DNA of 64,000 bases from an uncultured Collinsella sp. (GTDB lineage: Bacteria > Actinomycetota > Coriobacteriia > Coriobacteriales > Coriobacteriaceae). Position 1 is the stretch's first letter. Every line of letters starts with the position of its first letter. The position numbers and the translations under genes are program-made. This document shows, piece after piece, positions 13,157 through 50,273 of the stretch. Location: the NCBI GenBank assembly GCA_934630375.1, contig CAKTVQ010000001.1, positions 1 through 64,000 of the forward strand. The letters are read 5' to 3'. The notes below the pieces were generated by a model. It had not been told where the DNA came from, did no database searches, and saw nothing but the letters and a program-made list of their open reading frames with translations.

Positions 13157-13186
13157 ACAGGACGAACCCCTTGCATCGCTCTCTTG

Positions 13187-13235
13187 ACAAGGAGTGTCCC
13201 AAAGTGCCGGCACAAAAGGAACGTCCCCAAGTGCC
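13187..13235. repeat. REP-like GGAACGTCCCC repeat
   Basis: A 50-bp stretch with CAAGGAGTGTCCC, TGCCGGCA and GAACGTCCCCAAGTGCC. A close copy stands at 41207-41255. In both places it directly precedes a copy of the structured RNA element. Confidence 0.7.
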
Positions 13236-13260
13236 AACCAAAGCAACGCCGCAGGTAGAG

Positions 13261-13412
13261 GACGGACAGCGAGCGGGTCGCATTTGAGACAAGGTGACGT
13301 GAAACGAAAGGGCGCTGACCTTCTGGTCGCGCCCTTGAAGTTGAACGTCAGATTGTCCAAATGCGGCCCGCGCAGCGTCGAACCGTTACGCGGTTTGGTA
13401 AAACCGCGTAAC
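13261..13412 (-). repeat. Structured, covarying RNA element, copy A (after hspR)
   Basis: In the gene-sense (minus) direction, a 12-bp hairpin (13385-13412, loop GGTA/TACC) overlaps the hspR stop codon by one base. A conserved CGACGCTGCGCG block follows, then long stem P1 (13273-13286 with 13358-13371, one G-T pair), P2 (TGACGT with ACGTCA) and P3 (AAGGGCGC with GCGCCCTT, capped by GACC-AGAA-GGTC and one bulged A). Copies B, C and D share this plan. Nearly identical to copy B at 49442-49593. Confidence 0.7.
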
Positions 13413-25900: not shown

Positions 25901-28900
25901 TCGACGAGCTCGCCCTTGGTGACCTTCCAGCCCAGTCCGGGATCAACGTCGCCGTACGTCTTGGAAGCATCGGATGCCGTCACGGTGACCTTGCGAGGCG
26001 TCACCACAAGCTCGGCCTCGCCCTCGATAGCAGCTCCGTCGACGGTCGCGCTGTACTTGAACGGCAGGGTGCCGACGTTCTTGATCTCGGGGACCGTGGC
26101 AGACCAATTGACGCCACCGTCGATGCTGTACTGGACCGCCGTGCCCTCGGGCAGGGCCGAGACATCGGCAGTGTGGACCTTGCCGTCATACTCGCCGGAG
26201 TAGCCAGCAACAGAGGCTGCCGGGATTACAACCTTCTCGGAGGAGTTGTAGTCACAGACAGTGCAGTGCAAATGCTTGGATCCAGGCTTCTCGACCGTAG
26301 GCTTCTCGTCGATTATCCACTCGAAGGCATGCTCGGCAACGTCAATCCGCTCACCGCACGTGCAAACATGCCAGTGAGAAGAGCCGTCGCTCTTCCAGCC
26401 GGTGCCATCGGGCTCGTGCTTGACGATGCCCTCAACAGCAATCTCGGTGTCTTTCTCAACCTTAGAGAGTTGGTAAACGCCCTGCTCGCTAGGCTTGATG
26501 GTCTCGCCGTTTGCCTTAACAGCAAGATCCTTGGTCGCGTAATAACCATCCGCAACCGTAAGCTTAAGCGTAGCGGAGCCATGCCAGTCGAGTTCGGTCG
26601 CGTCAGCCGTGAGCGTGTAGCCCGTCTGCTCAGCCGGCAGCGTCACCTTGAGCTTTGACCCAGCGGCGATCGTAACGGTAACGGTCTCGGAGGCTTCGTA
26701 ATTCGTCGTCTTCCCGTAGCACAGGCGATAGGAACCGGGCGCCAGATTCTCAAGCTTGTCACCATCGACCAGATCGCTTGTCTTGATGAACATCATCTGT
26801 TTGCCAGGCTTGCCCAGCATCATCGACGTATCGACGCCCTCAATCTTGCCGTCATGTTTGCCACTCACGGTCTCCGCCGTCACCTTTGCATTGGGGGCGC
26901 TGTCCCGTTTGGCCTGGGCAATAGCGTACGTGCATTCAATGCGCGAAGAGGGCTTCCGATAATTAGCAAGAACTGCGTCCTCACCAATAAGATTGCTCAC
27001 ATACGCCGTATGCGTGCCAGCATTTACCTTTGCGGCGTCAACTACCTTCAGAGACACGTCGTCGCCGTTAACCAAATTAGTTATCTCTGCCGTGGGGCCC
27101 TGTTCTTGGCCGTTGTAAACGTATTGACCAACATTCCACGTCACATCGATAGTACGGCGCGTAATGGTGAACTCGCCCGCCTCAAACGTAATGTCGTAGT
27201 TAGCGTTGGCGCCCTCTTCCTGAGAAGCCGTCACCTTATACGTCTTATAACCGGTCAGAACTTTCTCGCCCTCATCACGCTTGTACGTGATACCGGAGAG
27301 CGTATCGCCCTCCATAAGGGAGCCAGCCGTCACTTCATAGGTAAAGTCGGGATCCGGATCACCATACGTTTTAGAAGCAGTAGTGGGCGCCACCGTAATC
27401 GGGCACGGCGTCACCTCGAGCGTCACCTGCCCCTCGATGTCGGAAGCACCAGGGGTAGTCACCTTATAGCCGACCGTGGTCTTGCCGACGTTTTTGATTG
27501 TGGGGGCATCCGGTTTCCACGTGGTGCCACCGTCGATGCTGAACTGAGCCGTCGCGCCAGCCTTAAGGTCCATGCTCACGGCATGCTCCTTGCCGTCATA
27601 CACGCCGACATAACCGCCGATGCACGCCGGAGGAATCTCCTCCTCGCACAGGACATAGCCGCACGTGGAGCATTGATACCGCTTTAGACCAGGCTTCTCG
27701 CTGGTAGGAGCCGTGACTTCCTCCCAGCAGAACTCATGCTTGCCTTTGTTTATTTTCTCTTTGCAACGGCACACCTGCCAGTGAGTGCCATCTGCGCCCT
27801 TGGTATTTAACCAAGTACCGTCTTTCGACGCGCAAGGACCCTCAGCAATTGTGAAGACGTTGGCCGACGAAGCGTAATGGTTGTTGTCCTCCTTAAAGCG
27901 CACTTCGTACTTCTCGGCGGACAAATGATCGATTGAAGTTTCACCGGCAGGGACGGATTTCCACCTTTTGGCCCCGAATTTTTTCCACTCATAGGTCTCA
28001 TTCAGGTTGGAAAGCGACCCGTCATTGAGGAAATGCGCGCTTTCGTCCTTGACCTTGACACCCGTGCCGGCGCTAGCGATATAACTCCACGGGACAGGCT
28101 GGCTGGCCGGCGTGATCTCGATCTTAACCGACCCGCTCTTTGTCACATAGTCATTCGCGGTGATGCGGTAATTGACCGTTACGGAGCAGACCTCGTCCCC
28201 GTCATCACGCTGAACATCCGTATAACTCGGAGCCTTCGTTGTCCATTTGTCGCTCCCATCAACGTTGTACTCGATCGTCATGTCGGCAGGAGCATTTTCC
28301 ACCGAGATGTTGACGCCATGCGGCTGCCCGTCATAGACGCCCTCGAATCCCTCGGCCGTCACATTTTCGAACTGCGTGCCCGTGATGGTCCAGCGTGCGA
28401 ATGTCGAGCCTGTGTAGTTGCCCATGCCCTTGATATAGACCAAGTAGTACGGGTAATAGGAATTGGAGCTGGGAGGATCGACCGCACTCACCGTGCTATA
28501 CGTCGGGTCACTATCAATCTCGTAGTCACCATCCTTGACGAAATACGACCAGCTTTGAGTGTCGTAGTTGTAGACCTTAACAGAGAAACTCGGCGTAATC
28601 TTCTTACCCGTCCACGGGTACGCACGAACTGTCTCACCATTGATCTTGGTGTCTTCTCCGCCATTATTGAATTCAAACGTGATCCCGCTGACATCGCGCA
28701 AATCAAGCGGCTTAATCTGGAACTCGCGAGTAAGCGTTAGGGCGTCATCCTGGCCATCGACCTTAACTTTGGACTCGATACGGTAAATACCTGCATCTTT
28801 AGGAACACATTCCAGTGCCTCGCCCTCGCCGTCGCCCCACTTCGTAAGCTTGTAATACCTGGATTCGAAGATATGAACGCTTCCTGTCGAGACGATATCG

Positions 28901-30606
28901 TCTCGAGCATAGCCGCTCTTATTCGACATCGTCAGTGTTGGAGTGACCTCACCGCCGCTGTACGGAATGCCGAGCTTTCCTTCGCTCACCGTCGCTCCAT
29001 CGATGCCAAGCTCGACGGCATAACCATTTTTGTAGTTGCAATCGCTCGGGCGCATCTTGCCGGAGCAGGTGACCTTCAGTTGATATGAGCCATTGCCAGC
29101 CTTTTCCACCGACCACACATGCTCATGCGGCAGGCGCGAGGCGTACACATAGCCATCGCTCGTCTTTCCGATGCCGACGCTTGGGTCGTCCGTAGTAACG
29201 CGAGCGCGCAGGTCGTTCTCTTCGATGCCGCAGGTGCCAAGCTTCCACTGCGCGCCCGTATAAGCGCCCAGTTGATCGTCCTTAAGCGACAGCTGGACCT
29301 TGCCCGTGAAGGATTCTTCAATGTTCAATTTGCTAAGGTAATAAATCCCCGGGGTATCGAATGCGAGGCCTCGGGCGCCCTTATCGCCGTTAGTGGTAAT
29401 GGTCGTGTTGCCGGCAAGCGTCACCGTACCGCGAGCACACACGGTGTTTCGACGCGTGTTCGCATCGGCATGGTAGTACGTTCCCTCGGCATAGGTATCG
29501 GATATCTTTGTATTGTTGAGCGTGCATGAAGAGTCCTTAGCAATCGCGATTGCACTCGTCATGACCATGTCTTGCGTGTAGTTCGCCGCTTCTTGCGTCG
29601 ACGTGATGGTGCAACCGTTCAGCGTAACGTCTGCATTATTGACAACAATGTTGCCAGCATGGGTATGCTCATTTTTATCCTGCACGTCAAGTTCTTTGCA
29701 CCAGATCGATTCTTGATGATTGTTCTTGAAGGTGCAGTTGTCGAATACGACTTTGGGCTTGCACCCACGGCCCACGACACTTAGCGCACCGGCGCAGTCA
29801 TCTCTATTTTCCGTAAATTCACAGTTGCTGAACGTGACATCCAAAATCTTTGCACCACTCGCCGAGCTGAGGATCGTAACCGGCGCCGGAGAGGCTTCAT
29901 ATTTAGTTTTGTCGTTGCCGTATTGGCTGCCGCCACCACCATAAGACGCATAGTTCCTTGTGCACTTCCAGTTGCTGACCTTGACGTTGTCGAAAGTTGC
30001 CGTTTCACCATCGAGCATCGTGCCGTACAGCGCAATTGCCCTCTTAGACTCCCCTGAGGTTACCGTCTTGAGTTCGATGCCAGAAACCTTAAGGTTCAGA
30101 CTACCGGGGACCCTGTTTTTATCGGCACCATCGGCGTAACCGTCTCTTCTGCCGGCATTGTCGGACAAAAAGCTCTTGCCGTTGCAATAGACGGGAGTCC
30201 TGCCATTCCCGTTGGTTCCGATGAACTCGATATAGCCGCCCTCGAGCACAAAGAGCTCATCGTAGCCGCTGTCTCTGTTGTCCTTAATAGAACCATTCCA
30301 GCGTCCTTGACATGCATTCTCGGTGAGATATATGCGCGTCGGATTTTGCTCGGTGCCGCCCTTTACGACGTAATGGTTGATCTCGATTTCTCCACCAACG
30401 ACGTAATCCTTGCCCGCCTCGAGCGTCACCGTATCGGCAACGTAAGGGTTAGTGCTTTTTGTTTTGGCCGGAATCGCGTCGCTCGGGATATCCGCCGTGG
30501 TCGCTGCCCCAGCCACCGCCGGCGACGCCACGAGTGCGCATGCCACGGCGACGATGCCCAGCAGGCGCGTCAGCACGGCGCGCGTCCCCATCTTCTTCTC
30601 CCTCAT
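22987..30606 (-). CDS. Giant cell-wall-anchored adhesin with MBG repeats
   Basis: 2539 residues. The start is the ATG behind AAGGGGAGC. A signal peptide (basic start, then LLGIVAVACALVASPAVAGAA) is followed by a beta-helix-like region to about residue 500 that lists short Asn/Thr-rich turns. Ig-like and MBG-type domains come next (three ASKTYGxxDP copies). Three C-terminal super-repeats of about 460 residues each combine MBG domains, a DWHGSA-type module and a Cys/His motif (HWHxCxCGE...HxFxW...CxxCG); a fourth, more diverged Cys/His unit lies upstream. The end has a Ser/Thr/Lys linker, LPSVGD as a variant sortase motif, a hydrophobic helix and RRRA. It is therefore probably fixed to the wall and exposed, for host or microbe contact. 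A two-component pair stands divergently upstream. Confidence 0.85.
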   Translation of the reverse strand: MREKKMGTRAVLTRLLGIVAVACALVASPAVAGAATTADIPSDAIPAKTKSTNPYVADTVTLEAGKDYVVGGEIEINHYVVKGGTEQNPTRIYLTENACQGRWNGSIKDNRDSGYDELFVLEGGYIEFIGTNGNGRTPVYCNGKSFLSDNAGRRDGYADGADKNRVPGSLNLKVSGIELKTVTSGESKRAIALYGTMLDGETATFDNVKVSNWKCTRNYASYGGGGSQYGNDKTKYEASPAPVTILSSASGAKILDVTFSNCEFTENRDDCAGALSVVGRGCKPKVVFDNCTFKNNHQESIWCKELDVQDKNEHTHAGNIVVNNADVTLNGCTITSTQEAANYTQDMVMTSAIAIAKDSSCTLNNTKISDTYAEGTYYHADANTRRNTVCARGTVTLAGNTTITTNGDKGARGLAFDTPGIYYLSKLNIEESFTGKVQLSLKDDQLGAYTGAQWKLGTCGIEENDLRARVTTDDPSVGIGKTSDGYVYASRLPHEHVWSVEKAGNGSYQLKVTCSGKMRPSDCNYKNGYAVELGIDGATVSEGKLGIPYSGGEVTPTLTMSNKSGYARDDIVSTGSVHIFESRYYKLTKWGDGEGEALECVPKDAGIYRIESKVKVDGQDDALTLTREFQIKPLDLRDVSGITFEFNNGGEDTKINGETVRAYPWTGKKITPSFSVKVYNYDTQSWSYFVKDGDYEIDSDPTYSTVSAVDPPSSNSYYPYYLVYIKGMGNYTGSTFARWTITGTQFENVTAEGFEGVYDGQPHGVNISVENAPADMTIEYNVDGSDKWTTKAPSYTDVQRDDGDEVCSVTVNYRITANDYVTKSGSVKIEITPASQPVPWSYIASAGTGVKVKDESAHFLNDGSLSNLNETYEWKKFGAKRWKSVPAGETSIDHLSAEKYEVRFKEDNNHYASSANVFTIAEGPCASKDGTWLNTKGADGTHWQVCRCKEKINKGKHEFCWEEVTAPTSEKPGLKRYQCSTCGYVLCEEEIPPACIGGYVGVYDGKEHAVSMDLKAGATAQFSIDGGTTWKPDAPTIKNVGKTTVGYKVTTPGASDIEGQVTLEVTPCPITVAPTTASKTYGDPDPDFTYEVTAGSLMEGDTLSGITYKRDEGEKVLTGYKTYKVTASQEEGANANYDITFEAGEFTITRRTIDVTWNVGQYVYNGQEQGPTAEITNLVNGDDVSLKVVDAAKVNAGTHTAYVSNLIGEDAVLANYRKPSSRIECTYAIAQAKRDSAPNAKVTAETVSGKHDGKIEGVDTSMMLGKPGKQMMFIKTSDLVDGDKLENLAPGSYRLCYGKTTNYEASETVTVTIAAGSKLKVTLPAEQTGYTLTADATELDWHGSATLKLTVADGYYATKDLAVKANGETIKPSEQGVYQLSKVEKDTEIAVEGIVKHEPDGTGWKSDGSSHWHVCTCGERIDVAEHAFEWIIDEKPTVEKPGSKHLHCTVCDYNSSEKVVIPAASVAGYSGEYDGKVHTADVSALPEGTAVQYSIDGGVNWSATVPEIKNVGTLPFKYSATVDGAAIEGEAELVVTPRKVTVTASDASKTYGDVDPGLGWKVTKGELVEGESLQDITVSREGGETVSKGGYAVTASQTEGANPNYEITFKPGTFTIDKRELTVKWDATTEFTYDGEEHCPQADLGNVVGDDKLGAYVDGGAVKAGKHTATITELTGVDKGNYKLPATGLTCEFSIKKAPKGAPVVQGVAETVSAKADGKITAVDATMEWRAKDSGEYQAVPEGVAELSGLAAGTYEVRYRADDNHEASTATKVTVAAGRKLAVTLPAEQVGYKLTADATELDWHGSATLAISIEDGYFADPSAYVVKVNEDAVALNDHGEFTVQDVEGDVKVTVEGVRKHEAVKDTWLSDGNTHWHECTCGGKVDEAAHTFTWVVDTPPTATEKGFGHKQCVVCGYELPGEEIPAAAISGYSDEYDGAYHTVNASALPEGATAEYSTDDGKTWSTAAPEIKDAGTLDVAYKVMIGGATVEGQVTLEVKPRAITVAAQNASKTYGEKDPVFEWSVTGGELVKDETLELEIEREDSDDVREGGYALQLTQPEGANPNYIITFVDGTFTINQRLLTVTWGTTEFVYDGKEHCPVATLGNVIGKDDLGAFVDGSQTEVGTYTATLAELTGKAAGNYVLPAEGLTCEFSIKNAAQDAPKVQAVAETVSGKKDGKITGIDATMEWRAQGAAEYQAVGKDVTELKDLAAGVYELRYQVKTNYDASAATEVTVKAGRKLVVTLPGNQVGYTLTSTATELDWHGSAKLAISIDSAYFTGKDYAVNVNGKAVKLSDDGTYELKDVEGDVNVTVDGVLKHEPDGSGWAHDAKAHWHICRCGEILDKAEHTFEWVVDRPATTEAKGERHQECTVCGEKGKTEDIAILAPTIIEGAGQAITVDTAKDLSFRSNAPIKYFKTVLVDDMEVGADNFVLTSGSTIVTLKTSFVKTLGVGEHKLSVVSTTGTAETTFTIAEAAKPTPTPGPSQTATTTTTTSSKSKKKTGKGTLPSVGDGTYAMAGGVLVAGAAVLLLTYAMRRRA

Positions 30607-30849
30607 CGTGCAGCTCCCCTTATCCCTATTCTTCGCGATGCCTGGCATCGCTTGGCGCTGGCGGCTGGCATAATCCCCGGCCAGCCGCCAGCATCTGTTG
30701 ACATGTTTATCCACGGATTATTTTGCGGCGGTACTTTCTAACACCCTGCCGCTCGGCGCGAGTTGCACGCCGTGGGGCGCAAATGGGATGCGCCTCCGCG
30801 AGCGGTACGCGCCCGATGTGGCAAAATCGAACTACTAAGGGGGCTCAGA

Positions 30850-37835: not shown

Positions 37836-38950
37836 TGGCGGCCGGACAGCCGGCTCGCTCCGGTATCGACTTCTCGGCATTCCGCGATCCCAAGCTGGCT
37901 CGCGAGCTCATCGAGCGCATCCGTGAACTCGTCGGCGACCGCACCATCAACCTTATGGAAGTCTGCGGCACGCACACCGTGAGCATCGGTCGCTATGGCT
38001 TTCGCTCCATTATGCCTGCCGGGCTCAAACTGCTGAGCGGTCCGGGTTGCCCCGTCTGTGTTACCGCCAACCGCGATATCGACCATGCAATCGCGCTCGC
38101 CAAGATGGACGGCGCCATCATCACCACCTTTGGCGACATGATGCGCGTGCCCGGGTCGTCTACCTCGCTCGCCGCGCAAAAGGCGGCGGGGCGCGATATT
38201 CGCATTGTGTACTCCCCGCTCGATGCACTCGATATCGCCGAACACAACCCCGATCGCCCGGTCATCTTTATGGGCGTCGGCTTTGAGACCACGACGCCCA
38301 CCATCGCCGCCGCCATTTTGGAGGCCGATGCACGCGGACTCCAGAACTTCTCGGTCTATTGCGCCCACAAGACCACGCCGCCGGCGCTGCGCGCCATCGC
38401 CAACGATCCCGAGACCACTATCGACGGCTTTATCCTTCCGGGACACGTCGCCACCATCACGGGCTTAGCCCCCTTTGACTTTTTGGTCGATGAGTTCGAG
38501 ACCCCAGGCGTAGTCACCGGATTTGAGCCGGTCGATATTCTGCAGGGCATCTGCATGCTGGTCCAGATGGTTGTTGAGGGGCAGCCCGCAATCGACAACG
38601 CCTACCGCCGTGGCGTCAACGCAGACGGCAACCCCGTGGCGCGCCAGCTGGTCGAGCAGGTGTTTGAGCCATGCGACACCACGTGGCGCGGGCTGGGGCC
38701 GATTGCCAACTCGGGCCTTTCCATCCGCCCCGAGTTCTCGCGCTTTGATGCCCGCACTCGCTTTGACGTGCCCGTTGAGACGACGGTCGAGCCGCGTGGG
38801 TGCCGCTGCGGCGACGTGCTGCGCGGGGCCATTACGCCGAGCGACTGCCCTCTGTTCGGCCGCGCTTGTACACCCGAGCATCCCATCGGCCCCTGCATGG
38901 TGAGTTCCGAGGGCAGCTGTGCAGCATATTTCCGCTACCGAGGCTGTTAG
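37835..38950 (+). CDS. hypD: HypD iron-sulfur scaffold for Fe(CN)2CO assembly
   Basis: 371 residues. HypD holds the iron atom with HypC while cyanide and CO are added. Signature motifs are present: MEVCGTHTVSIGRYG, LLSGPGCPVCV, FTTFGDM-like ITTFGDMMRVPG, and PGHVATITG. The C-terminal [4Fe-4S] cysteines lie in RGCRCGDVLRG, DCPLFGRACTPEHPIGPC and SSEGSCAAY. The GTG start overlaps the hypC stop. The stop is followed immediately by structured RNA element copy D, which separates it from hypE by 213 bp. Confidence 0.97.
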   Translation: MAAGQPARSGIDFSAFRDPKLARELIERIRELVGDRTINLMEVCGTHTVSIGRYGFRSIMPAGLKLLSGPGCPVCVTANRDIDHAIALAKMDGAIITTFGDMMRVPGSSTSLAAQKAAGRDIRIVYSPLDALDIAEHNPDRPVIFMGVGFETTTPTIAAAILEADARGLQNFSVYCAHKTTPPALRAIANDPETTIDGFILPGHVATITGLAPFDFLVDEFETPGVVTGFEPVDILQGICMLVQMVVEGQPAIDNAYRRGVNADGNPVARQLVEQVFEPCDTTWRGLGPIANSGLSIRPEFSRFDARTRFDVPVETTVEPRGCRCGDVLRGAITPSDCPLFGRACTPEHPIGPCMVSSEGSCAAYFRYRGC

Positions 38951-39097
38951 GTTCCGCCGTTCTAACGAACGGCGGACCGGTCGACGCTGCGCGCCATTCA
39001 GGCGAGCGATTTGCCTTTCAATCGTCGGCTGCGGGCAAAAGCCCAGCAGCCTCCTCTTTCAAGGCAACTCACTTCGCCTGAATGGCGCTCGCTGACT
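38951..39097 (+). repeat. Structured, covarying RNA element, copy D (between hypD and hypE)
   Basis: It begins at the base after the hypD stop. Hairpin CCGCCGTTC-TAAC-GAACGGCGG (38954-38975) leads to the conserved CGACGCTGCGCG block. P1 is 38991-39005 with 39074-39088 (15 bp, no mismatch). P2 is TTGCCTT with AAGGCAA. P3 is GGCTGC/GCAGCC at 39027-39051, capped GGGC-AAAA-GCCC, with the bulged A. It has the same plan as copies A-C, but P1 and P3 bases are different and still paired. Confidence 0.7.
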
Positions 39098-39163
39098 TTT
39101 ACTTAACATCGATTCTGCCACACTCAGCTATTGCCGACCCCCCCCACGATTGGAGTTTTCGAT

Positions 39164-40198
39164 ATGTCCCGTACTGCCACCGATAGCACTGTCCTGTTGG
39201 GCCACGGCTCTGGCGGTCAGATGATGAAACGCATCATCGATGAGGTCTTTTTGGATGCCTTTGGGTCGCCCGAGCTGCTCGAGGGCAACGATGCCGGCGT
39301 CGCCGCGCTGCCCACGAGCGGGCGCATCGCCATGTCGACCGACAGCTTTGTAGTCTCGCCGCAGTTCTTCCCCGGGGGCAACATCGGCCGCCTCGCTGTA
39401 TGCGGAACCGTCAACGACGTCGCGACCTCGGGCGCCAACGTACGCTACCTATCGTGCGGCTTTATCCTCGAAGAGGGCTATCCCATGGATAAGCTCCGCC
39501 AGATTGTGCAAACGATGGCCGAGACGGCGCACGAGGCGGGCGTGGCGATCATCACCGGCGACACCAAAGTGGTCGAGCGCGGCGGGGCCGACGGCGTCTA
39601 CATCAATACCGCCGGCGTGGGCGAAGTGCCCGTGGGCGTAGCGCTCAGCGGCGCCAACTGCCAGCCCGGCGATGTCATTCTGGTATCGGGTACGCTGGGC
39701 GACCACGGTATCGCCATCATGAGCCAACGCGAGGGCTTGGCGTTTTCGAGCACCATCGAAAGCGATGCCGCGCCGCTCAACCACCTGATTGCCGATGTGC
39801 TTGCCGCAGCACCCGAAACACGCTGCTTCCGCGACCCCACGCGCGGCGGCCTGGCGTCCACGCTCAATGAGTTTGCCCAGGCCAGCGGCGTTGCCATGGA
39901 GGTCGACGAGGATGCCGTGCCTGTGCGCCCCGACGTGCAGGCAGCCTGCGAGATGCTCGGCTATGACGTGCTGCAGGTAGCAAACGAGGGCAAGATGGTT
40001 GCCGTGGTGCCGGCCGAGCAGGCCGATGCCGCGCTGGCAGCCATGCGCGCCGCGCGCTACGGCGAGAATGCCGCTATTATCGGTCGCGTGCTGCCGCTTG
40101 CCGAGGACGCCCGCCCCGCCGTGCGCGTGCGCACCGGCTGGGGCTCGACCCGCATCCTCGACATGCTCGTAGGAGAGCAGCTGCCGAGGATTTGCTAA
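39164..40198 (+). CDS. hypE: HypE, carbamoyl dehydratase
   Basis: 344 residues. HypE dehydrates the carbamoyl group placed on its last residue, giving the thiocyanate that donates CN to HypD-bound iron. The invariant PRIC C-terminus is present. The PurM-like ATP fold shows LGHGSGGQMMKRII, STDSFVVSPQFFPGGNIG, LAVCGTVNDVATSGA and RDPTRGGLASTLNE. The ATG behind TTGGAG was chosen; an upstream frame from 39131 covers the promoter-side C-run. It follows hypD after the structured RNA element and is the last hyp gene here. No hypB is present in the window. Confidence 0.97.
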   Translation: MSRTATDSTVLLGHGSGGQMMKRIIDEVFLDAFGSPELLEGNDAGVAALPTSGRIAMSTDSFVVSPQFFPGGNIGRLAVCGTVNDVATSGANVRYLSCGFILEEGYPMDKLRQIVQTMAETAHEAGVAIITGDTKVVERGGADGVYINTAGVGEVPVGVALSGANCQPGDVILVSGTLGDHGIAIMSQREGLAFSSTIESDAAPLNHLIADVLAAAPETRCFRDPTRGGLASTLNEFAQASGVAMEVDEDAVPVRPDVQAACEMLGYDVLQVANEGKMVAVVPAEQADAALAAMRAARYGENAAIIGRVLPLAEDARPAVRVRTGWGSTRILDMLVGEQLPRIC

Positions 40199-40303
40199 CG
40201 ACAAAGGCTCAGGGCTATTAAAGATATTCAGATTCCAAACATGCCCGGCACGCATGCCAAGTATCATGGGGTGCGTTTTACAACTCAAGCGGCAGGAGCA
40301 CCC

Positions 40304-40972
40304 ATGGCAGCAGCTTTTTCCCATGTGATCTTTGATCTGGATGGCACCATCCTCAACACGCTCGAGGACCTGGCGGCCGCCGGCAACCATACCTGCGAGA
40401 CGCACGGCTGGCCCACGTTTGCCGTAGACGAGTACCGCTACAAGGTGGGAAACGGCATGCTCAAGCTGGTCGAGCGCTTTATGCCCGCCGAGTATGCGGG
40501 CGACGGCCGTATGTTTGAGCAGACGCTTGCCGAGTTTAGGGCTTACTACGGCGAGCACAAGGAAGACCACACTGCACCGTACGCCGGCACGATCGAGCTG
40601 CTCGACTGCCTGCGCGCCGCGGGTGTGCAGCTTGCCGTGCTCACTAACAAGGACCACGTCTCGGCGGTTCCGCTTATCGAGAAATACTTTGGTTCCGAGC
40701 GCTTTGCGCTGGTGCAGGGCCGCGTCGATGCGTTTCCTCCCAAGCCCGAGGCGCCTGTTACGCTGCATGTGATGAAAGAGCTAGGCGCCGACCCGGCAAC
40801 CACACTCTATGTGGGCGATTCCAATGTCGATGTTTTGACCGGCCACAACGCTGGCCTTAAGAGTGCGGGCGTCAGCTGGGGCTTCCGCGGCCGCGCAGAG
40901 CTGGAAGCTGCCGGCGCCGACTACGTGGTGGACACCCAGGAAGAGCTCGCGTCGCTGATTCTGGGCGAGTAG
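40304..40972 (+). CDS. HAD-family phosphatase (phosphoglycolate phosphatase-like)
   Basis: 222 residues. A HAD phosphatase with the nucleophile motif IFDLDGTILNTLEDL, a helical cap (type C1), motif II LAVLTNKD, the Lys in PPKPEAPVTLH and the acidic motif IV LYVGDSNVDVLTGHNAG. The length and order fit phosphoglycolate phosphatase (Gph) or related PpaX/YhhW-type enzymes; the substrate cannot be fixed from sequence. AGGAGCACCC precedes the chosen ATG. It lies 105 bp after hypE on the same strand, perhaps with its own promoter, and is followed by a repeat-filled gap. Confidence 0.88.
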   Translation: MAAAFSHVIFDLDGTILNTLEDLAAAGNHTCETHGWPTFAVDEYRYKVGNGMLKLVERFMPAEYAGDGRMFEQTLAEFRAYYGEHKEDHTAPYAGTIELLDCLRAAGVQLAVLTNKDHVSAVPLIEKYFGSERFALVQGRVDAFPPKPEAPVTLHVMKELGADPATTLYVGDSNVDVLTGHNAGLKSAGVSWGFRGRAELEAAGADYVVDTQEELASLILGE

Positions 40973-41013
40973 CGGGGCTGTCGCTCAACACGGCTGCATA
41001 GATTCTGTCGCGC

Positions 41014-41186
41014 GGAAAGCGCATCCCGTTTTGCCGCCTCAGAATGGGATGCGCTTTCCGGTTGAGCCTTGTCGGGGAAACGGCATCCCGTTTCAGAGCA
41101 ATATTCCGGGTCGCACTTTCCGCAACCCAACCCATCCGGAAACCGCGACCCGCTATTCGGCCAAATACCGGCTCGTCTTTTCCCGA
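41014..41186. repeat. Nested inverted-repeat element (shared with 18 kb)
   Basis: 14-bp arms 41014-41027 and 41046-41059 form a hairpin. A second, imperfect one pairs GTCGCACTTTCCG with CGGAAACCGCGAC. The tail resembles that at 18051-18073. Confidence 0.65.
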
Positions 41187-41206
41187 GCATTCGATGCAAC
41201 GCTGGC

Positions 41207-41255
41207 GCAAGGAGCGTCCCCAACTGCCGGCAGAAAATGAACGTCCCCAAGTGCC
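41207..41255. repeat. REP-like GAACGTCCCC repeat
   Basis: Close to the copy at 13187-13235: CAAGGAGCGTCCCC, TGCCGGCA and GAACGTCCCCAAGTGCC occur in the same order and at the same spacing. Confidence 0.65.
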
Positions 41256-41290
41256 GCCTCAATGACTACCATGGCAACGCCGCAGGTAGA

Positions 41291-41444
41291 GGACGGACAG
41301 CGAGCGGGCACCAGAGCGAACAAATTGGCATGAAAAGAGGACGGCATAGACCTTCTGGTCATGCCGTCCTCTTTGAATGACAAGTTGTCGCTCTGGTGCC
41401 CGCGCAGCGTCGAGCAGTTGCGGCGTTTGGTAAAACGCCGCAAC
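41291..41444 (-). repeat. Structured, covarying RNA element, copy C (after lipoprotein gene)
   Basis: Hairpin 41417-41444 ends 3 bp from the stop of the minus-strand lipoprotein gene. P1 is 41304-41318 with 41389-41403 (15 bp, perfect). P3 is 14 bp (41334-41347 with 41361-41374), with a GACC-GGTC cap and a one-base bulge. P1 and P3 sequences differ from copies A and B throughout, while the flanking GACGGACAGCGAGCGGG and CGCAGCGTCGAGCAG blocks are kept. Confidence 0.7.
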
Positions 41445-41447
41445 AAA

Positions 41448-42005
41448 CTAGCTCAGCATTGCATCCATCATCTCGGAGTTGACGGAGTCGTCGGCAGACC
41501 ACTCGCCGTCGTCGTTGCAGGTGTACTTGAAGATAACCGTGGTCTTCCTGGGCTCGGTGGCCTTGGTCACATCGACCATAACCTGACCGGCCATCTTGTA
41601 CAGCTCGTCATCGGAAGGAACCGTGTCAAGCGCAGCGACCTTCTCCTGATACTGGGTGGAGAAGTCCTCGACGATCTTGTTCATAGACTTGCATGTGATA
41701 GAGACCTCGGCGGTCGCGACACCCTTGTCCTCGTCGACCGTCACGTCGCCGATCTTGTAGTCAAAGCCCTCGAGATAGGTCTTGGCATACTCCTTGGGAT
41801 CGATACCCAGCTGCTCGAACTCGTCGCCCGAAGCCTCCTCCAGACCAGAGAGGAAGTCGTCGCCACCGTTTTTGACCTCGTCAAACTGCGTCGTAAGATC
41901 CTCGGTGATGAGCTCCTCAACCGAAGGACCTCCACAGCCGGAAAGCACGACCACGCATGCAACCAAGACGGCCATGAGGGGCGCAAGCAGCAGCTTCTTT
42001 TTCAT
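41448..42005 (-). CDS. Lipoprotein of unknown function (DUF5105-like size)
   Basis: 185 residues. A type II signal peptide (MKKKLLLAPLMAVLVACVVV, lipobox LSGC) means a lipid-anchored extracellular protein. The rest is acidic and alpha/beta, with a helix (VEELITEDLTTQFDEVKNG) followed by strands (YKIGDVTVDEDKGVATAEVSITC) and a second pair of Cys (CKSM, YTCNDDGE). From memory this layout recalls the small uncharacterised lipoproteins of gut Actinobacteria and Firmicutes. GGGAGGAACAAC precedes the ATG, and longer upstream frames lack a ribosome site. It is a single gene with a structured RNA element directly after it. Confidence 0.75.
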   Translation of the reverse strand: MKKKLLLAPLMAVLVACVVVLSGCGGPSVEELITEDLTTQFDEVKNGGDDFLSGLEEASGDEFEQLGIDPKEYAKTYLEGFDYKIGDVTVDEDKGVATAEVSITCKSMNKIVEDFSTQYQEKVAALDTVPSDDELYKMAGQVMVDVTKATEPRKTTVIFKYTCNDDGEWSADDSVNSEMMDAMLS

Positions 42006-42184
42006 GTTGTTCCTCCCAATGAGCGGCACCGCGCTTCCCGGACGCGGCGCACGTTGTAATAAGTAAGCCCATACTATCCACTTATGAACGCCCTCGACGG
42101 CACGAAGGCGCGGTCGGTTCGTTTTAGCGTCCGAACGGTTTGCAAGCCCGCCCAACGTGCAATAAAACGCTTCCCCGCGGTGCA

Positions 42185-42219
42185 ATAAAAAAGGTGGCCG
42201 GAAAACCCGACCACCCTTG
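42185..42219 (-). terminator. Terminator of the PTS EIIA gene
   Basis: A GGTGGCCGG/CCGACCACC stem (one G-T pair) around 42193-42216 is followed on the minus strand by a run of six T residues, about 25 nt beyond the stop codon. Confidence 0.82.
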
Positions 42220-42241
42220 CACATCCTTTGGATGCCGCAGT

Positions 42242-42778
42242 TTACTTGCGGACGACCTTAACGATGGCGTCACCGGCGGCGACAGCGGAGTCGGCCTCGA
42301 CGGCGAGTTCGACATCGGCAAACTCGGCGGTGTTGGACACAGCAACGACGACGCAGTCCTTGTAGCCGGCAGCGGCGATCTTGGCGCGGTCGATCTTGAG
42401 CATGGGCTGGCCAGCCTTTACGACGTCGTCGGCCTTGACGAAGCCCTCGAAGCCATCGCCGTTCATGTTGACGGTATCGACGCCAACATGCACCAGAACC
42501 TCGATGCCGCTATCGGACTGCAGACCCACGGCGTGGCCCATGGTGACGGTCACCTTGCCGTCGCAGGGAGCGTAGACCAGATCGTCCTCGGGCCACACGG
42601 CGCAGCCCTTGCCCAGGACCTCGCCGCCAAAGACGGGATCGGGCACGTCGGCCATCTTGATGACCTTGCCCTTGACGGGCGAGCACAGCACGTCGGCGCC
42701 GGCAGAAGCAGAGATGGAGGACGGAGCAGCGGCAGTCGCGGGCTCAGCCTTCTTCTTGAACATGTCAAACAGACCCAT
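42242..42778 (-). CDS. crr: PTS glucose-type EIIA component
   Basis: 178 residues. A soluble phosphocarrier passing phosphate from HPr to a sugar-specific EIIB. The phospho-histidine lies in GIEVLVHVGVDTV and the second catalytic His in VTMGHAVGL. The fold signature VCSPVKGKVIKMADVPDPVFGG is changed only slightly (LCSPVKG...). A short Lys/Ala/Ser-rich N-terminus precedes it. AGGAGAAAACG precedes the ATG. It is monocistronic, with its own terminator. It probably serves EIIBC proteins that lack a IIA domain, such as the one at 62059-63486. Confidence 0.93.
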   Translation of the reverse strand: MGLFDMFKKKAEPATAAAPSSISASAGADVLCSPVKGKVIKMADVPDPVFGGEVLGKGCAVWPEDDLVYAPCDGKVTVTMGHAVGLQSDSGIEVLVHVGVDTVNMNGDGFEGFVKADDVVKAGQPMLKIDRAKIAAAGYKDCVVVAVSNTAEFADVELAVEADSAVAAGDAIVKVVRK

Positions 42779-42918
42779 ACGTTTTCTCCTCTTGATTAAG
42801 CGCAACGTTGTGCGCATGCCTATGGTGATTATAGTGCCAAATGGTTCAAATGCTAAGGTGGGGACTCGAATCGCGAGCCCATCCCAACGCTTTTCCCCGG
42901 TGGCACTCATATTGTCGA

Positions 42919-45521
<2,603 letters not shown>

Positions 45522-45635
45522 GGCTTGCCAATCGTTGATTTAGTCATAGTTCGTCGTGATTCAGATATTAGCAGAACGCGCCGACGCGTCCATAATCTGT
45601 GCTATGCAGCAGATCGATCGAGCCAAGGAGGATCC

Positions 45636-48227
45636 ATGACCGCGTACTATCAGCAGGTGCTCGAGGGCACATACGACAACCACGTGCTTCCGTTTTTGTG
45701 GATGAAGGGCGAGTGCCATAAGACCATTGCCGAGTATCTGGAAAAGATCGCCGGCGCCGACATCCACGAGGTCTGTCTCGAAAGCCGCCCACACCCCGAT
45801 TTTTGCGGCGAGGGCTGGTGGCGCGACTTGCGCTTTGTCATTGACAAGTGCAAGCAGCTGGGCCTTAAGCTCTGGATCTTGGACGACGCACACTTCCCCA
45901 CGGGCTTTGCCAACGGCGCCGTCAAGGAGGCCGTGCCCGAGCTCCGCAAGATCGTGCTCACGCACCGCACGTTCGACATCGTGGGCCCCACGTCCGCCGC
46001 GAGCATCGCGCTCGCCAACATGCTCGACAAAACGGAGCGCTTCTACGGCGTGACATTTATGCAGGACGGCAGCCCCGTCGACGTCGCTTACCGAGTAATC
46101 GACGATGCAGACGGCAACCCCAGCCGCCTGGTCTTCGATGCACCCGCGGGCCTCACGCAGGCATGCGTGATGTTCACGAGCGGCAAGACCTCCTACAACG
46201 AGGACTACATCAATATGGTCGACCGCGCCTCGGTGGCGCAGCTCATCGATGCTGTCTACGAGCCGCATTTTGAGCATCTGGGCGATGAGTTTGGCAAGAC
46301 GATCCTGGGCTTTTTCTCCGATGAGCCCGGATTTGCCAACGAGAAGGGCACCACGGGCCCCGATGGCATCTCGGACACGCTCATCGGCAAGGCCACCGCG
46401 CCCCTACCCTGGTCGGCCGAGCTTGAGCGTCGCCTACGCGCGGCACTGGGCGAGCGCTACCTGGCCGAGCTCCCGCACCTGTGGGACCGCGAGCCGGCCG
46501 GCGCGCACGTACGCCACGTCTATATGGACATCGCGAGCACCCTCTATAAGGAGTGCTTCTGCGACCAGCTCGGCGACTGGTGCCGCGCGCACGGCGTGCA
46601 ATACATCGGCCACGTTATCGAGGATAAGGACTGCCACGCGCGCCTGGGCGTGGGCGCCGGGCACTACTTCCGCGCCGTGGACGGTCAGGACATGGCGGGC
46701 GTCGACATCGTGATCAACCAGCTGGTACCCGGCATGGACCGCGGCCTTCACAGCTACGGACGCGGCGTGTGGGACCTCGAGTTCTATAACTACGTGCTGC
46801 CCAAGCTGGGCTCCTCGGCAGCACACCTCGACCCCAAAAAGCAGGGGCGCTGCATGGCCGAGGTCTTTGGCGCATTTGGATGGCACGAAGGCCTACGCGA
46901 GATGAAGTGGATCGCCGATCATTTTTTGGTGCGCGGCGTCAATTGGTTTGTGCCGCATGCCTTTAGCATGGCCGCCTTCCCCGACTGGGACTGCCCGCCG
47001 CATTTCTATGCGCATGGCCAAAACCCCCAGTTTGCACACTTTGGGCAGCTCATGAGCTACATGAACCGTACGGCAAGCCTGCTGAGCGGCGGGTGCGCAA
47101 CGACCCCGGTGGCGCTTCTCTACCATGCGGACGCCGAGTGGGCAGGCGAGGCAAACTTTATGCAGCATGCCGCCTCCGAGCTTATGCGCGCGCAGGTCGA
47201 CTTTGACATTGTGCCGGCAGAGGCATTTGAAGACGCAGGGCGCTATGCCGTTGAAATTGCCGCAGACGGTAGCGGCTTTAGCGTGAACGGCCAGGCATAC
47301 CGCTGCCTGGTGATGCCCGGAGCCGAGTTTGTCGGCGGAGCCGTGCTCGACTTTGCCGCGCGCGCCGCAGCCGCAGGTGTTGCCGTGTACGCGCTGGATG
47401 AGTTGCCGAACAAGCGCTACGACGGTGACACTGCAGGCCGCAAGGGCTTTGCCTCCCTGGATGCAACCGCGCTCGCCAGCATCAAACTCCTGGCGACCAC
47501 CGAGCTCGCAGGAACACTTGCCAATACCGGCATGCAGACCGTGGTTTGCGCCGAGCCCCAGCCCTGGCTGCGCGCACTGCGCTACGAGCGGGCGGGCGAG
47601 AGCTATCTGATGCTCGTCAACGAGCATCCCAAGCAGGGCATCTCCACTCAGGTTGCGCTTGCCGACGGCACGCCCGTCGCAGGCGCGCGCCTCGATCTGC
47701 TCAACGGCACCGAGCCCGCCGCCTTTGACGGCACGCTCGAGCTGGCTCCCTACGAGAGCTGCATCGTGGTCCTTGGGGCTACAGGTTCCGTTGCTGTGGC
47801 AACCGCCGAAGACGAAGCCACATGCGTCGACGGGCCCTGGGCGGTTGCCTTCTCTGCCCCTGGCACCGATGCCTTTGGCGAGCCTGTTGAGCTTGCAGAC
47901 CTGCACGACCTTTCCTCGGCCGAGTTCCCCGGCAAGGCCGGCACATTCCGCTACCAGGCCTCCTTTGTCCTGGGCGAAGCGGCCACCCGCACCGTCATCG
48001 ACCTTGGCGAGGTCTTTGAGACCGCAACCGTCACCCTCGACGGCAAATCCCTCGGCACGCGCATCTGTCCGCCTTACCGCTTTGAGGCCGGCGCGCTTTT
48101 GGCCGGTGAGCACGCGCTTGCGATCGATATCATCAACACCCTCGACCATGCCGTCCCCGACGTGTTCGGCATGACCGAGCCCTCCGAGCCCAGCGGCCTC
48201 TTGGGCCCCGTACGCGTGCTCGGGTAA
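45636..48227 (+). CDS. GH106-like glycosidase (putative alpha-L-rhamnosidase)
   Basis: 863 residues with no signal peptide, so probably intracellular. Conserved stretches of the GH106 and related uncharacterised families are visible: LKLWILDDAHFPTGFANG, GFFSDEPGFANE, YIGHVIEDKDCHARLG, GRCMAEVFGAFGWHEGL and VRGVNWFVPHAFSMAAFPDW. A C-terminal jelly-roll (FRYQASFVLGEAATRTVIDL, then VTLDGKSLGTRICPPYRFEA) resembles a GH2-type carbohydrate-binding domain. Candidate acids are in SDEPG and AEVFGA. AAGGAGGATCC precedes the ATG. It is divergent from an AraC gene and followed by an RpiR gene. The exact substrate (rhamnoside or other deoxysugar) is inferred. Confidence 0.8.
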   Translation: MTAYYQQVLEGTYDNHVLPFLWMKGECHKTIAEYLEKIAGADIHEVCLESRPHPDFCGEGWWRDLRFVIDKCKQLGLKLWILDDAHFPTGFANGAVKEAVPELRKIVLTHRTFDIVGPTSAASIALANMLDKTERFYGVTFMQDGSPVDVAYRVIDDADGNPSRLVFDAPAGLTQACVMFTSGKTSYNEDYINMVDRASVAQLIDAVYEPHFEHLGDEFGKTILGFFSDEPGFANEKGTTGPDGISDTLIGKATAPLPWSAELERRLRAALGERYLAELPHLWDREPAGAHVRHVYMDIASTLYKECFCDQLGDWCRAHGVQYIGHVIEDKDCHARLGVGAGHYFRAVDGQDMAGVDIVINQLVPGMDRGLHSYGRGVWDLEFYNYVLPKLGSSAAHLDPKKQGRCMAEVFGAFGWHEGLREMKWIADHFLVRGVNWFVPHAFSMAAFPDWDCPPHFYAHGQNPQFAHFGQLMSYMNRTASLLSGGCATTPVALLYHADAEWAGEANFMQHAASELMRAQVDFDIVPAEAFEDAGRYAVEIAADGSGFSVNGQAYRCLVMPGAEFVGGAVLDFAARAAAAGVAVYALDELPNKRYDGDTAGRKGFASLDATALASIKLLATTELAGTLANTGMQTVVCAEPQPWLRALRYERAGESYLMLVNEHPKQGISTQVALADGTPVAGARLDLLNGTEPAAFDGTLELAPYESCIVVLGATGSVAVATAEDEATCVDGPWAVAFSAPGTDAFGEPVELADLHDLSSAEFPGKAGTFRYQASFVLGEAATRTVIDLGEVFETATVTLDGKSLGTRICPPYRFEAGALLAGEHALAIDIINTLDHAVPDVFGMTEPSEPSGLLGPVRVLG

Positions 48228-48253
48228 CGCCCCGGGCGCAAACGGCCCAACAA

Positions 48254-48318
48254 GGACAGCGCCCCTATGTTGAGCCCGCACAGCGTCGAGCGGTCCGTCG
48301 TTCATAGACCGGCGGACC
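48254..48318. repeat. Truncated remnant of the structured RNA element (copy E)
   Basis: GGACAGCG, CCCGCACAGCGTCGAGC and the terminal hairpin (GGTCCGTCG at 48292 with CGGCGGACC ending 48318) are kept. The middle (most of P1, all of P2 and P3) is gone. It is oriented like copies A-C but has no minus-strand gene behind it. Confidence 0.6.
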
Positions 48319-48393
48319 AAAACTCCCAGCCAAGCCGAACGTTTTATTTATCGCTATGATTGGTTTATCGCGACGCAAACGCATAGGAGCCAT

Positions 48394-49248
48394 ATGGATA
48401 TCAGGCGAAAGATCACGCAGGGCAAAAGCCTCACCCCCACCGAGCAACAACTTGGGCGAACGGCCCTCGCCATGGGCGAGGATGTGCGCGGGCTTTCCAT
48501 TAAGGAATTTGCCGCGTGCGCCAACGTTTCGGTCGCGAGCGTGCACCGCTTTTGCAAAAAGCTCGGCCTCGAGGGATTCAAAGACCTCAAGGTCGAGCTC
48601 ATCCGCCAGGCGACCGAGGCGGGCAACCGGCGCGACGTGGACATCAACTTTCCCTTCGATGCCACCTCCGCCCCTGCGCAGGTGATGGAGCGCATGGAGG
48701 GGCTCTACCAGACCACCTTGGCCGAAACGCAGGAGCTGCTCGACCCTGCACAGCTCGACCACGCCGCCAAGCTCATCATGCGCGCCGGCACCGTGGACAT
48801 CTACACGGGCTCGCATAACCTGTATCCAGCGGGAATGTTCCGCGATCGCCTGCTTTCCGCCGGCAAAAGCGCGACGTGCCACGACAGCGTCGAGGCGCAG
48901 GTGCGCACGGCGCTCGCCTCGAGTCCCGACCATGTGGCAATCGTCATCTCCTACAGCGGCCTTGCCCCCAACCTCAAGGAGATCTTGCCGATCCTCAGCA
49001 GTCGACATGTCCCGGTCATCGTCATCGGCACGCCGTACTGTGCCCGCATTCACCCCGGCTTTGCCGCCTATCTCACGGTAAGCGACCACGAGAGTATGAC
49101 GCACCGCATCACGCAGTTCGCCAGCCATATCGCCGTGCAATACGTACTCGATTCGCTCTACAGCAGCTACTTTGCCAAAGATTACGCCCGCTGCTCCGAG
49201 TTCTTAGAGCGCTCGTTCCCCTACACCCGCCTCCCCGGGCTCAAGTAA
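48394..49248 (+). CDS. RpiR-family transcriptional regulator
   Basis: 284 residues. An N-terminal HTH_6 domain (residues 1-75: LSIKEFAACANVSVASVHRFCKKLGLEGFKDLKVEL) is joined to a SIS sugar-phosphate-binding domain (about 105-235: VDIYTGSHNLYPAGMFRDRLL, VAIVISYSGLAPNLKEIL, VPVIVIGT). Proteins of this type sense a phosphosugar and control nearby sugar-use genes. AGGAGCCAT precedes the ATG. It follows the rhamnosidase-like gene after 166 bp containing a repeat remnant, and may regulate it or the PTS/GH1 genes. Confidence 0.92.
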   Translation: MDIRRKITQGKSLTPTEQQLGRTALAMGEDVRGLSIKEFAACANVSVASVHRFCKKLGLEGFKDLKVELIRQATEAGNRRDVDINFPFDATSAPAQVMERMEGLYQTTLAETQELLDPAQLDHAAKLIMRAGTVDIYTGSHNLYPAGMFRDRLLSAGKSATCHDSVEAQVRTALASSPDHVAIVISYSGLAPNLKEILPILSSRHVPVIVIGTPYCARIHPGFAAYLTVSDHESMTHRITQFASHIAVQYVLDSLYSSYFAKDYARCSEFLERSFPYTRLPGLK

Positions 49249-49281
49249 CAACGAGCGTGGAGTTTCGGACACTAACCTAAC

Positions 49282-49345
49282 GAGCGTGGATAATCTCCCA
49301 CTTTGAGACCGTCACCGAGCCAAAAACGGGAGATTATCCACGCTC
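49282..49345. repeat. Hairpin with arms GAGCGTGGATAATCTCCC
   Basis: Perfect 18-bp arms (49282-49299 and 49328-49345) surround a loop containing TTTGAG and CCAAAAAC. A degenerate copy is at 59077-59136. Confidence 0.8.
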
Positions 49346-49360
49346 ATTTCAGACTGATCA

Positions 49361-49404
49361 TTGGGGACGTTCTTAAACGACTAGTCAAACAGGAACGTCC
49401 CCAA
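49361..49404. repeat. REP-like GGGGACGTTC hairpin
   Basis: 12-bp arms TTGGGGACGTTC and GAACGTCCCCAA enclose a 20-nt loop with ACGACTAGTC. The same loop is found in the hairpin at 59150-59199. Confidence 0.8.
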
Positions 49405-49441
49405 GTGCCGCATTTGGAGCAAGATGACGCCGCAGGCAGAG

Positions 49442-49593
49442 GACGGACAGCGAGCGGGTCGCATTTGAGACAAGGTGACGCGAAACGAAAGGGCGCTGAC
49501 CTCCTGGTCGCGCCCTTGAAGTTGAACGTCAGATTGTCCAAATGCGGCCCGCGCAGCGTCGAGCAGTTACGGCGTTTGGTAAAACGCCGTAAC
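49442..49593 (-). repeat. Structured, covarying RNA element, copy B (after pyrE)
   Basis: The hairpin (49566-49593) overlaps the pyrE stop codon by one base, exactly as copy A does with hspR. P1 is 49454-49467 with 49539-49552. It is nearly identical to copy A across the element, so one is probably a recent duplicate. The terminal hairpin bases differ but still pair. Confidence 0.7.
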
Positions 49594-50273
49594 TAACGGA
49601 CTCCGTACTGCTCGTAGTAGGCATCGATGGCGGCCTTGAGCTCGTCGTCGATGACGACTTTGCCGTCGATCTCGTGGTTGTAGAGGGTCTCGACGACCTC
49701 GGCCATGGAAACGATGCTCGCAACGGGGAAACCATACTTGGCCTCGATCTCCTTCTGCGCGGTGGTCACGCCACCCTTGCCGACTTCCATGCGGTTGAGA
49801 GACACGATGAGGCCCTTGATCTCGACATCAGCAGCAGCCTTGACCTTGGGATAGGTCTCGTCGATGGACTTACCGCTGGTGGTGACGTCCTCGACCATGA
49901 CTACGCGGTCGCCGTCCTGGGGCTCGTAGCCCAGCAGGTTGCCCTTGTCGGCGCCGTGGTCCTTGGCCTCCTTGCGATCGCAGCAGTACTTGACCTCCTT
50001 GCCGTACAGCTCGTGGTAGGCAATTGCGGTCACGACGGCCAGCGGAATACCCTTGTAGGCCGGTCCAAACAGCACGTCAAAGTCGTCGCCAAAGTTATCG
50101 TGGATTGCCTGGGCGTAATACTCGCCCAGCTTCTTGAGCTGGTAGCCCGTCACGTAAGCGCCGGCGTTCATAAAGAACGGGGACTGACGGCCGCTCTTGA
50201 GCGTAAAGCTGCCGAACTTAAGAACGTCGGACTCAACCATGAACTTGATGAACTCTTGCTTGTAAGCCTCCAT
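49593..50273 (-). CDS. pyrE: PyrE, orotate phosphoribosyltransferase
   Basis: 226 residues. It transfers orotate to PRPP, giving OMP in pyrimidine synthesis. The PRPP-binding motif VVMVEDVTTSGKSI is intact, and the flexible loop with Lys residues (KYCCDRKEAKDHGADKGNLLG) and FGPAYKGIPLAV are also present. GAGAGGAGCCC precedes the ATG. It is a single gene, away from other pyr genes. Its stop codon shares one base with the hairpin of structured RNA element copy B, and no conventional T-rich terminator follows. Confidence 0.96.
   Translation of the reverse strand: MEAYKQEFIKFMVESDVLKFGSFTLKSGRQSPFFMNAGAYVTGYQLKKLGEYYAQAIHDNFGDDFDVLFGPAYKGIPLAVVTAIAYHELYGKEVKYCCDRKEAKDHGADKGNLLGYEPQDGDRVVMVEDVTTSGKSIDETYPKVKAAADVEIKGLIVSLNRMEVGKGGVTTAQKEIEAKYGFPVASIVSMAEVVETLYNHEIDGKVVIDDELKAAIDAYYEQYGVR

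Follow-up and report, generated by a model that had tools for sequence, protein, structure and literature searches.

Palindromic two-hairpin repeats behind stop codons in Coriobacteriales, probably a family of small mobile DNA elements

Introduction

The stretch of 64,000 nucleotides analysed here (the window) contains four copies of a long hairpin element that end up behind four different genes and differ in the letters of their stems. A preliminary description, made from the sequence alone, interpreted them as a structured RNA element fixed to gene 3' ends. The question raised by this locus is what keeps the arms of such hairpins complementary, and whether the molecule that folds is RNA or DNA.

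Results

Anatomy of the copies in the window

All four alike copies are present where they had been described, and a covariance model, itself built from them, scores them at 147–167 bits (Table 1); the gene labels of the copies, hspR (A), lipoprotein (B), pyrE (C) and hypD (D), are the names used in the preliminary description. Strand 1 denotes the sense of the gene whose stop codon a copy touches and strand 2 the antisense. In gene sense, the order is a TAG stop, a first hairpin (H1), 4–5 variable bases, the linker CGACGCTGC, a long hairpin (LH), CGCTG and a tail; the whole element, consisting of H1, the linker, LH with its fixed mismatches, CGCTG and the tail, comprises about 190 bp. H1 possesses a loop of 4 nt and a stem of 12 bp in copies A, B and C, and of 10 contiguous bp with a closing pair in copy D. 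The terminal hairpin reported at the stop codon corresponds to H1, which touches or follows the TAG stop in 4/4 window copies. The span from GACGCTGC to CGCTG measures 112–114 nt in the window and 112–116 nt in the full copies of the nearest compared genome (G001, which shares 31% of words with the window), with differing stem letters, and the interruptions of LH sit at constant places. Read on strand 2, these interruptions are mostly purine-purine (GG/GA, GA/GA, GAA/GAA, or, in a third class, single A-G pairs); the second internal loop of LH is TC/TC on strand 1 in 21/22 copies.

Some details of the preliminary description require revision. Its grouping of the stems into A/B, C and D does not hold, since the LHs of the copies at 13261 (A) and 49442 (C) are nearly identical and those at 41291 and 38951 are each different, and the window therefore contains three LH types. 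The P1 stem, for which a pairing of 14–15 bp had been given, is perfect over 15–16 bp in the copies at 38951 and 41291, but the other two copies have a strand 1 mismatch. The end of the element had been set too short, as a further tail of about 25 nt, with a consensus taken from 49/51 copies of a wider set, extends beyond the flank given there.

Table 1. Coordinates of the four window copies and of their parts
Feature	Position	Strand	Remark
Copy A	13261..13412	-	
Copy A, H1, 12 bp	13385..13412	-	overlaps TAG stop 13412-13414
Copy A, GACGCTGC + LH + CGCTG, 113 nt	13267..13379	-	
Copy A, tail, end approximate	13243..13266	-	
Copy D	38951..39097	+	
Copy D, H1	38951..38978	+	directly behind TAG stop 38948-38950 of upstream open frame
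Copy D, GACGCTGC + LH + CGCTG, 112 nt	38983..39094	+	missing, or present with no LH, in four relatives
Copy D, tail, end approximate	39095..39119	+	
Copy B	41291..41444	-	
Copy B, H1, 12 bp	41417..41444	-	TAG stop 41448-41450, 3 nt away
Copy B, GACGCTGC + LH + CGCTG, 114 nt	41298..41411	-	
Copy C	49442..49593	-	
Copy C, H1, 12 bp	49566..49593	-	overlaps TAG stop 49593-49595
Copy C, GACGCTGC + LH + CGCTG, 113 nt	49448..49560	-	LH nearly identical to copy A

Other repeat families adjoin the copies (49361-49404, 13175-13245 and 41205-41262), namely inverted repeats of TTGGGGACGTTC, which read GTAGTCATTGGGGACGTTC in relatives, and GGCACTTGGGGACGTTCC...TGCCGGCA. Beyond copy C, on its downstream side at 49300-49345 and further, there is a hairpin repeat GTGGATAATCTCCCGTTTTTGGC...GGGAGATTATCCAC, found at the same place in relatives. 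The minus strand of the window also contains a very large open reading frame (22987-30714, 2575 aa); the alignment with four compared genomes stops at about 22650 and restarts at about 30750, so this frame appears to be absent there.

Fold strength and paired change

Folding in gene sense gave -83.7 to -99.8 kcal/mol for the four copies (z -9.4 to -13.9), and 0/200 shuffles folded as well for each of them. In an alignment of 22 copies (four from the window and 18 from G001), 95.4% of cells pair and 35/54 pairs are changed on both sides, which bears out the compensatory changes noticed earlier by eye. When the partner was slid by 1–3 columns, only 9–17 pairs were altered in both arms, and covariation scored 0.058–0.101 vs 0.477 for the real partners. 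On four of five measures, none of the shuffles, which ignore kinship, equalled the alignment; on the fifth, the number of pair types, 6/500 did. The covariance model constructed from these copies (R1) found full-length matches with different stems in another family of the same order, and an H1-like pattern gave 27 and 21 matches in two genomes, the reversed pattern giving 0.

Distribution and copy number

G001 contains 28 copies at E below 1e-13, the reverse-strand hit of a palindrome being left out. In the genus, 39/43 genomes match at E<=0.001, with 33–52 matches in 21 genomes, 11–23 in 4 genomes and 0–10 in 18 genomes (counts that include some reverse-strand hits). In a draw from the class, at least 99/296 genomes match at E<=1e-6 (scoring was limited to 10 candidates per genome, which makes this a minimum), and 12 chosen carriers contain 2 to 39 matches each; in a draw from the phylum, 8/246 genomes match, all within the order. 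Among control loci with a pattern gap of 80–92 (typically about 93–99), 4/72 (63 from a GTDB scan and 9 from a viral scan) match the model, namely those of Gordonibacter sp. An230, Rubneribacter badeniensis and two Eggerthellaceae MAGs, and these named loci indicate that the second carrier family is probably the Eggerthellaceae. The model matches 0/120 viral loci among the pattern matches listed. The spread of the family is order-wide in the Coriobacteriales, with a clade-limited expansion. Copies from a single genome have unlike stems in other genera, and recent movement is accordingly less evident there.

A search among openly licensed PMC papers found no paper on this repeat. In PMC8040213, human microbiomes are reported to yield 250 palindromic candidates, and the Coriobacteriales repeat may be among them; the consulted passages of PMC8632094 do not name these bacteria.

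Position behind stop codons

Attachment to gene 3' ends had been described as fixed; it is confirmed for most copies of the wider family and is not absolute. A set of 51 copies was taken from G001, from the window and, with the best copy in each case, from the remaining members of the genus, after removal of hits on the reverse strand, of copies truncated by a contig end and of repeated pyrE loci. In this set, H1 starts 0–8 nt past the first base of the stop codon of a long open frame in 43 cases (35 TAG, 7 TAA and 1 TGA). By chance, 3.0% of candidate oriented positions would be near a stop, and the corresponding P values are too small, because some of the 51 copies are mutual orthologues. In G001 alone, 22/28 copies are at a stop codon. 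The orientation is always the same relative to the gene ending at the copy. Only 16.6% of the available TAGs are stop codons, and the observed preference is far above the yield of a TAG target. TAG is nevertheless over-used, ending 17/22 copy-bearing genes in G001 vs 119/245 genes (P=0.006), and at one apparently orthologous site (L073, L075, L076) the stop varies between TAG, TGA and TAA. In other genera, 18/29 copies lie near a stop when a wider window of -12 to +5 is used, one of them (L224) falsely. G001 also possesses LHs of this type that lack both H1 and the conserved linker, located right behind stops (L187-L192); these start 1–10 nt past the first base of the stop in six examined cases, one of them uncertain, and perhaps represent an older form.

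Presence, absence and replacement at orthologous sites

Comparison of orthologous sites indicates that the element comes, goes and changes its long hairpin. Copy D sits between two open frames of the same strand (the hypD site). The element is full at this site in the window, consists of H1 and the linker without LH in G001 and G007, and in G024 and G002 the place is occupied by about 30 nt of other sequence, with neither H1 and linker nor LH. At the pyrE site, compared using loci from 30 of 41 matching genomes, the element is present in 20/21 loci of the close clade (two of them cut by contig ends), with three LH classes in 12, 5 and 3 loci, and a remnant only in G024; it was found at that place in 0/9 more distant loci. 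The hspR site contains four different LHs in four genomes, and in G007 the end of an older LH persists behind the new one. Tandem copies occur, with H1 in tandem at some loci. The flanks of the presence/absence sites differ too much for a target duplication to be read. The comparison yielded no clean insertion boundary, no terminal inverted repeats accompanied by such a duplication and no autonomous parent element of the kind that MITEs possess.

The element is also inserted in frame and read through in carA (G274, G107, G194), rsmA (G107) and leuS (G274, in reverse orientation), these identities being supported by Pfam for one protein each. The rsmA insertion lies in a linker that measures 10–63 aa across 30 loci (60 aa in G107, 18 aa in a relative of the same genus), and only the linker of G107 matches the model; because seven other loci have linkers of 41–63 aa without a model match, this loop is tolerant anyway. 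The sequence CGCTCATATGACCCAATCCGCTGTCAAG... follows a long hairpin in L095, L098 and L168, twice at a contig end; it could represent a further repeat or have arisen in the assembly.

DNA or RNA

The conserved fold and the compensatory changes of the proposed structured RNA were thus recovered, but its RNA nature is not well supported, considering the mismatches, the stabler antisense strand, the orientation and the mobility. On strand 1, the LHs contain 77 G-U and 82 A-C oppositions, each about 2% of 4076 cells counted after the removal of identical rows (A3, 76 to 68), and an A-C on strand 1 is a G-U on strand 2. The tRNAs of the same loci, used as a control, show 30 G-U and 2 A-C (18 tRNAs, 2/20 distinct predictions being skipped as likely spurious; ARAGORN itself favours pairs), and LH and tRNA differ in this respect (P=9e-7). 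LH consequently lacks the tolerance of G-U together with avoidance of A-C that a functional RNA strand would display. H1 has 18 G-U and 4 A-C on strand 1, in copies that are not independent, several being of one H1 subtype, and an RNA role for H1 is therefore possible.

With RNA folding parameters, the antisense strand gives the stabler fold in 91/93 copies (63/64 + 28/29), and strand 2 is stabler in 6/6 LH-only copies of G001. Copies are oriented with the leading strand, as deduced from the GC skew of the samples, in 64/69 cases (P=1.7e-9), that is, in 20/20 copies of G125 (20 of 33 matches sampled), 19/21 of G107 (21 of 39) and 25/28 of G001 (28 loci), vs gene biases of 62, 53 and 66%, respectively. 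Orientation follows replication beyond the gene bias, although another possible source of this strand bias is that a palindrome is tolerated better if its weaker fold is the one on the lagging-strand template. The symmetry of G-U and A-C, the antisense stability and the leading-strand orientation speak for DNA over RNA.

Comparison with known RNA classes and repeat families

In agreement with the statement that no known RNA class is recognisable, Rfam 15 gave 0 gathering matches in the window; the suggested comparison with the Collinsella-1 motif (RF01700) did not reach the cut-off. At the gathering score, 20 related loci yielded only a tRNA, and a permissive search of 38900-49700 (copies B, C and D) yielded only weak, unrelated hits.

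Integron attC sites and IS200/IS605 elements are recognised as folded single-strand substrates. They resemble the present family in having conserved base and unpaired positions and variable stem letters, and such recognition would explain the pattern of conservation; unlike in IS200/IS605, the Y1 transposase is missing from several carriers of the present element.

As the consulted part of PMC10969869 describes them, Rickettsia palindromic elements are palindromic repeats of about 150 bp, present in many copies, in frame in unrelated metabolic genes and elsewhere, and the present family likewise enters unrelated protein genes in frame (carA in three genomes, rsmA in one and leuS in one). Compared by description, it differs from them in belonging to another bacterial order, in its two hairpins with a conserved linker and in its strong preference for stop codons. 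The GTAG and CGTC REPs, according to passages of PMC3733652, are also palindromic, dispersed and mostly downstream of coding regions, with some intragenic copies, and for CGTC REPs, too, no transposase is known. At the same time, REPs are put at 20–40 bp in these passages, and their stem and tag geometry differs from that of the present element: GTAG occurs beside H1 in 10/51 copies (any NTAG in 39/51, in the 14 nt surrounding the start of H1), and instead of the stem of 8–9 bp with an end tag of CGTC REPs, H1 has 12 bp, with the CGTC of the antisense linker 4–5 nt from the stem. MRSC-65-2, in the portion of PMC11109978 devoted to it, resembles the family in its long stem, strong covariation and dozens of copies per genome, and its authors also consider DNA structure and mobility there; going by that description, MRSC-65-2 spans diverse phyla and has a UYCCGG repeat, whereas the present family was found in one order only, and its conserved letters are different. 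ERIC and MITE sequences, as touched upon in PMC10969869 (the structure of ERIC being general background), share the short palindromic non-coding form, the lack of an own transposase and the lineage-specific expansion, but the stem letters of the present family vary far more than its fold. By behaviour, the nearest analogues would be the Rickettsia palindromic elements and the REPs.

Discussion

We consider it probable that the window copies are members of a new family of small, mobile and palindromic DNA repeats in the Coriobacteriales, which stay able to fold because the folded single strand is recognised. This reading builds on what was observed of the anatomy, the paired change and the distribution, on the gain, loss and exchange of LH at orthologous sites, and on in-frame insertion, stop adjacency and leading-strand orientation. 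A trans-acting enzyme would recognise the folded single DNA strand, and this recognition would keep the arms complementary; the strand concerned would most likely be the antisense of the upstream gene, on which the LH mismatches are purine-purine, and the linker and CGCTG may serve as end marks of LH. If recognition is under selection, both the pairing and the mismatches would be maintained, while the stems drift and recombine between copies, and copies would persist behind stops, and sometimes as in-frame linkers, as the places of least cost to the host. The G-U lean of H1 to the sense strand, the scarcity of strong element matches near Y1 genes (1/30 Y1 loci), the lack of a Y1 match in 5/12 carriers and a stop-codon preference well beyond that of a TAG target weigh against this proposal.

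An element of the upstream gene's mRNA, in which H1 slows or secures termination or protects the 3' end and LH serves as a nuclease block or protein site, is a less likely explanation. In E. coli, translation is influenced by REPs close to stop codons, and the adjacency of 43/51 copies to stops vs 3.0% expected, the constant orientation to the upstream gene, the 18 G-U vs 4 A-C of H1 and the strong paired change all agree with such a role. It is difficult to reconcile, however, with the symmetric G-U and A-C of LH, with the antisense being the stabler fold, with the loss or replacement of the element at orthologous genes and with its occurrence within open frames, once reversed. That the hairpins are simply transcription terminators of the upstream genes is scarcely credible: they do sit just behind stop codons, and several distant element-free species have a T-tailed hairpin behind pyrE (by eye), but no T run, as expected of an intrinsic terminator, follows H1 or LH in the four window copies, copy D is placed between two open frames of the same strand, L181 has a separate T-tailed hairpin after the element, and the element also lies within open frames.

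The pairing might also be kept by mutation alone, the arms of a passive repeat being copied by template switching or hairpin correction. In L011/L046 (1501-1659), LH forms a perfect palindrome that lacks the usual mismatches and looks like the product of one arm copied over its partner, which shows that arm copying also occurs, and changes on both sides make up 40% of changed pairs even among near-identical copies. As a general explanation it is improbable, since arm copying would erase mismatches, yet these persist, the second loop being TC/TC in 21/22 copies, and mismatches appear again in other genera; moreover, the share of changed pairs that are one-sided and broken is half among near-identical copies vs 11–12% among distant copies, which suggests purging. 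Mobilisation as a REP-type repeat by the IS200/IS605-like Y1 transposases (RAYT) of the carrier genomes appears very unlikely. The element is palindromic, multi-copy and partly intragenic, and in the genus the presence of Y1 tracks copy number, a Y1 gene being found in 31/31 genomes with at least four element matches vs 6/12 others (Fisher P=1.5e-4, uncorrected for kinship). However, a RAYT flanked by the repeat was not encountered as a rule: a strong element match lies near the Y1 gene at 1/30 Y1 loci (L121), a Y1 match is missing in 5/12 carrier genomes of other genera, one of which has 39 element matches, and of four RAYT loci inspected, one has other GTAG repeats on its flanks. The RAYT-type Y1 locus L138 has its own GTAG...AATTTGGGACGG inverted repeats (1331-1363, 2261-2296, 2348-2383), which belong to a different family.

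Within the reading as a mobile DNA repeat, one may speculate, as a rather doubtful extension, that H1-LH, folded as single-stranded DNA, is the substrate of some enzyme that inserts it immediately after the stops of leading-strand genes. Insertion would then perhaps be coupled to transcription and translation, or to leading-strand replication, and, if true, the family would owe its specificity for gene ends to something other than a short DNA target, which would be remarkable for a mobile element.

Covariation is commonly read as proof of RNA structure, and in the present hairpin family covariation is strong, yet the signs point to DNA; because of its mismatch symmetry, strand stability and replication orientation, the family is useful for telling DNA from RNA covariation. 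In its relatives, the element adds peptides to essential enzymes. Common gut bacteria carry an order-wide, countable mobile repeat with precise preferences for the stop codon and the leading strand.
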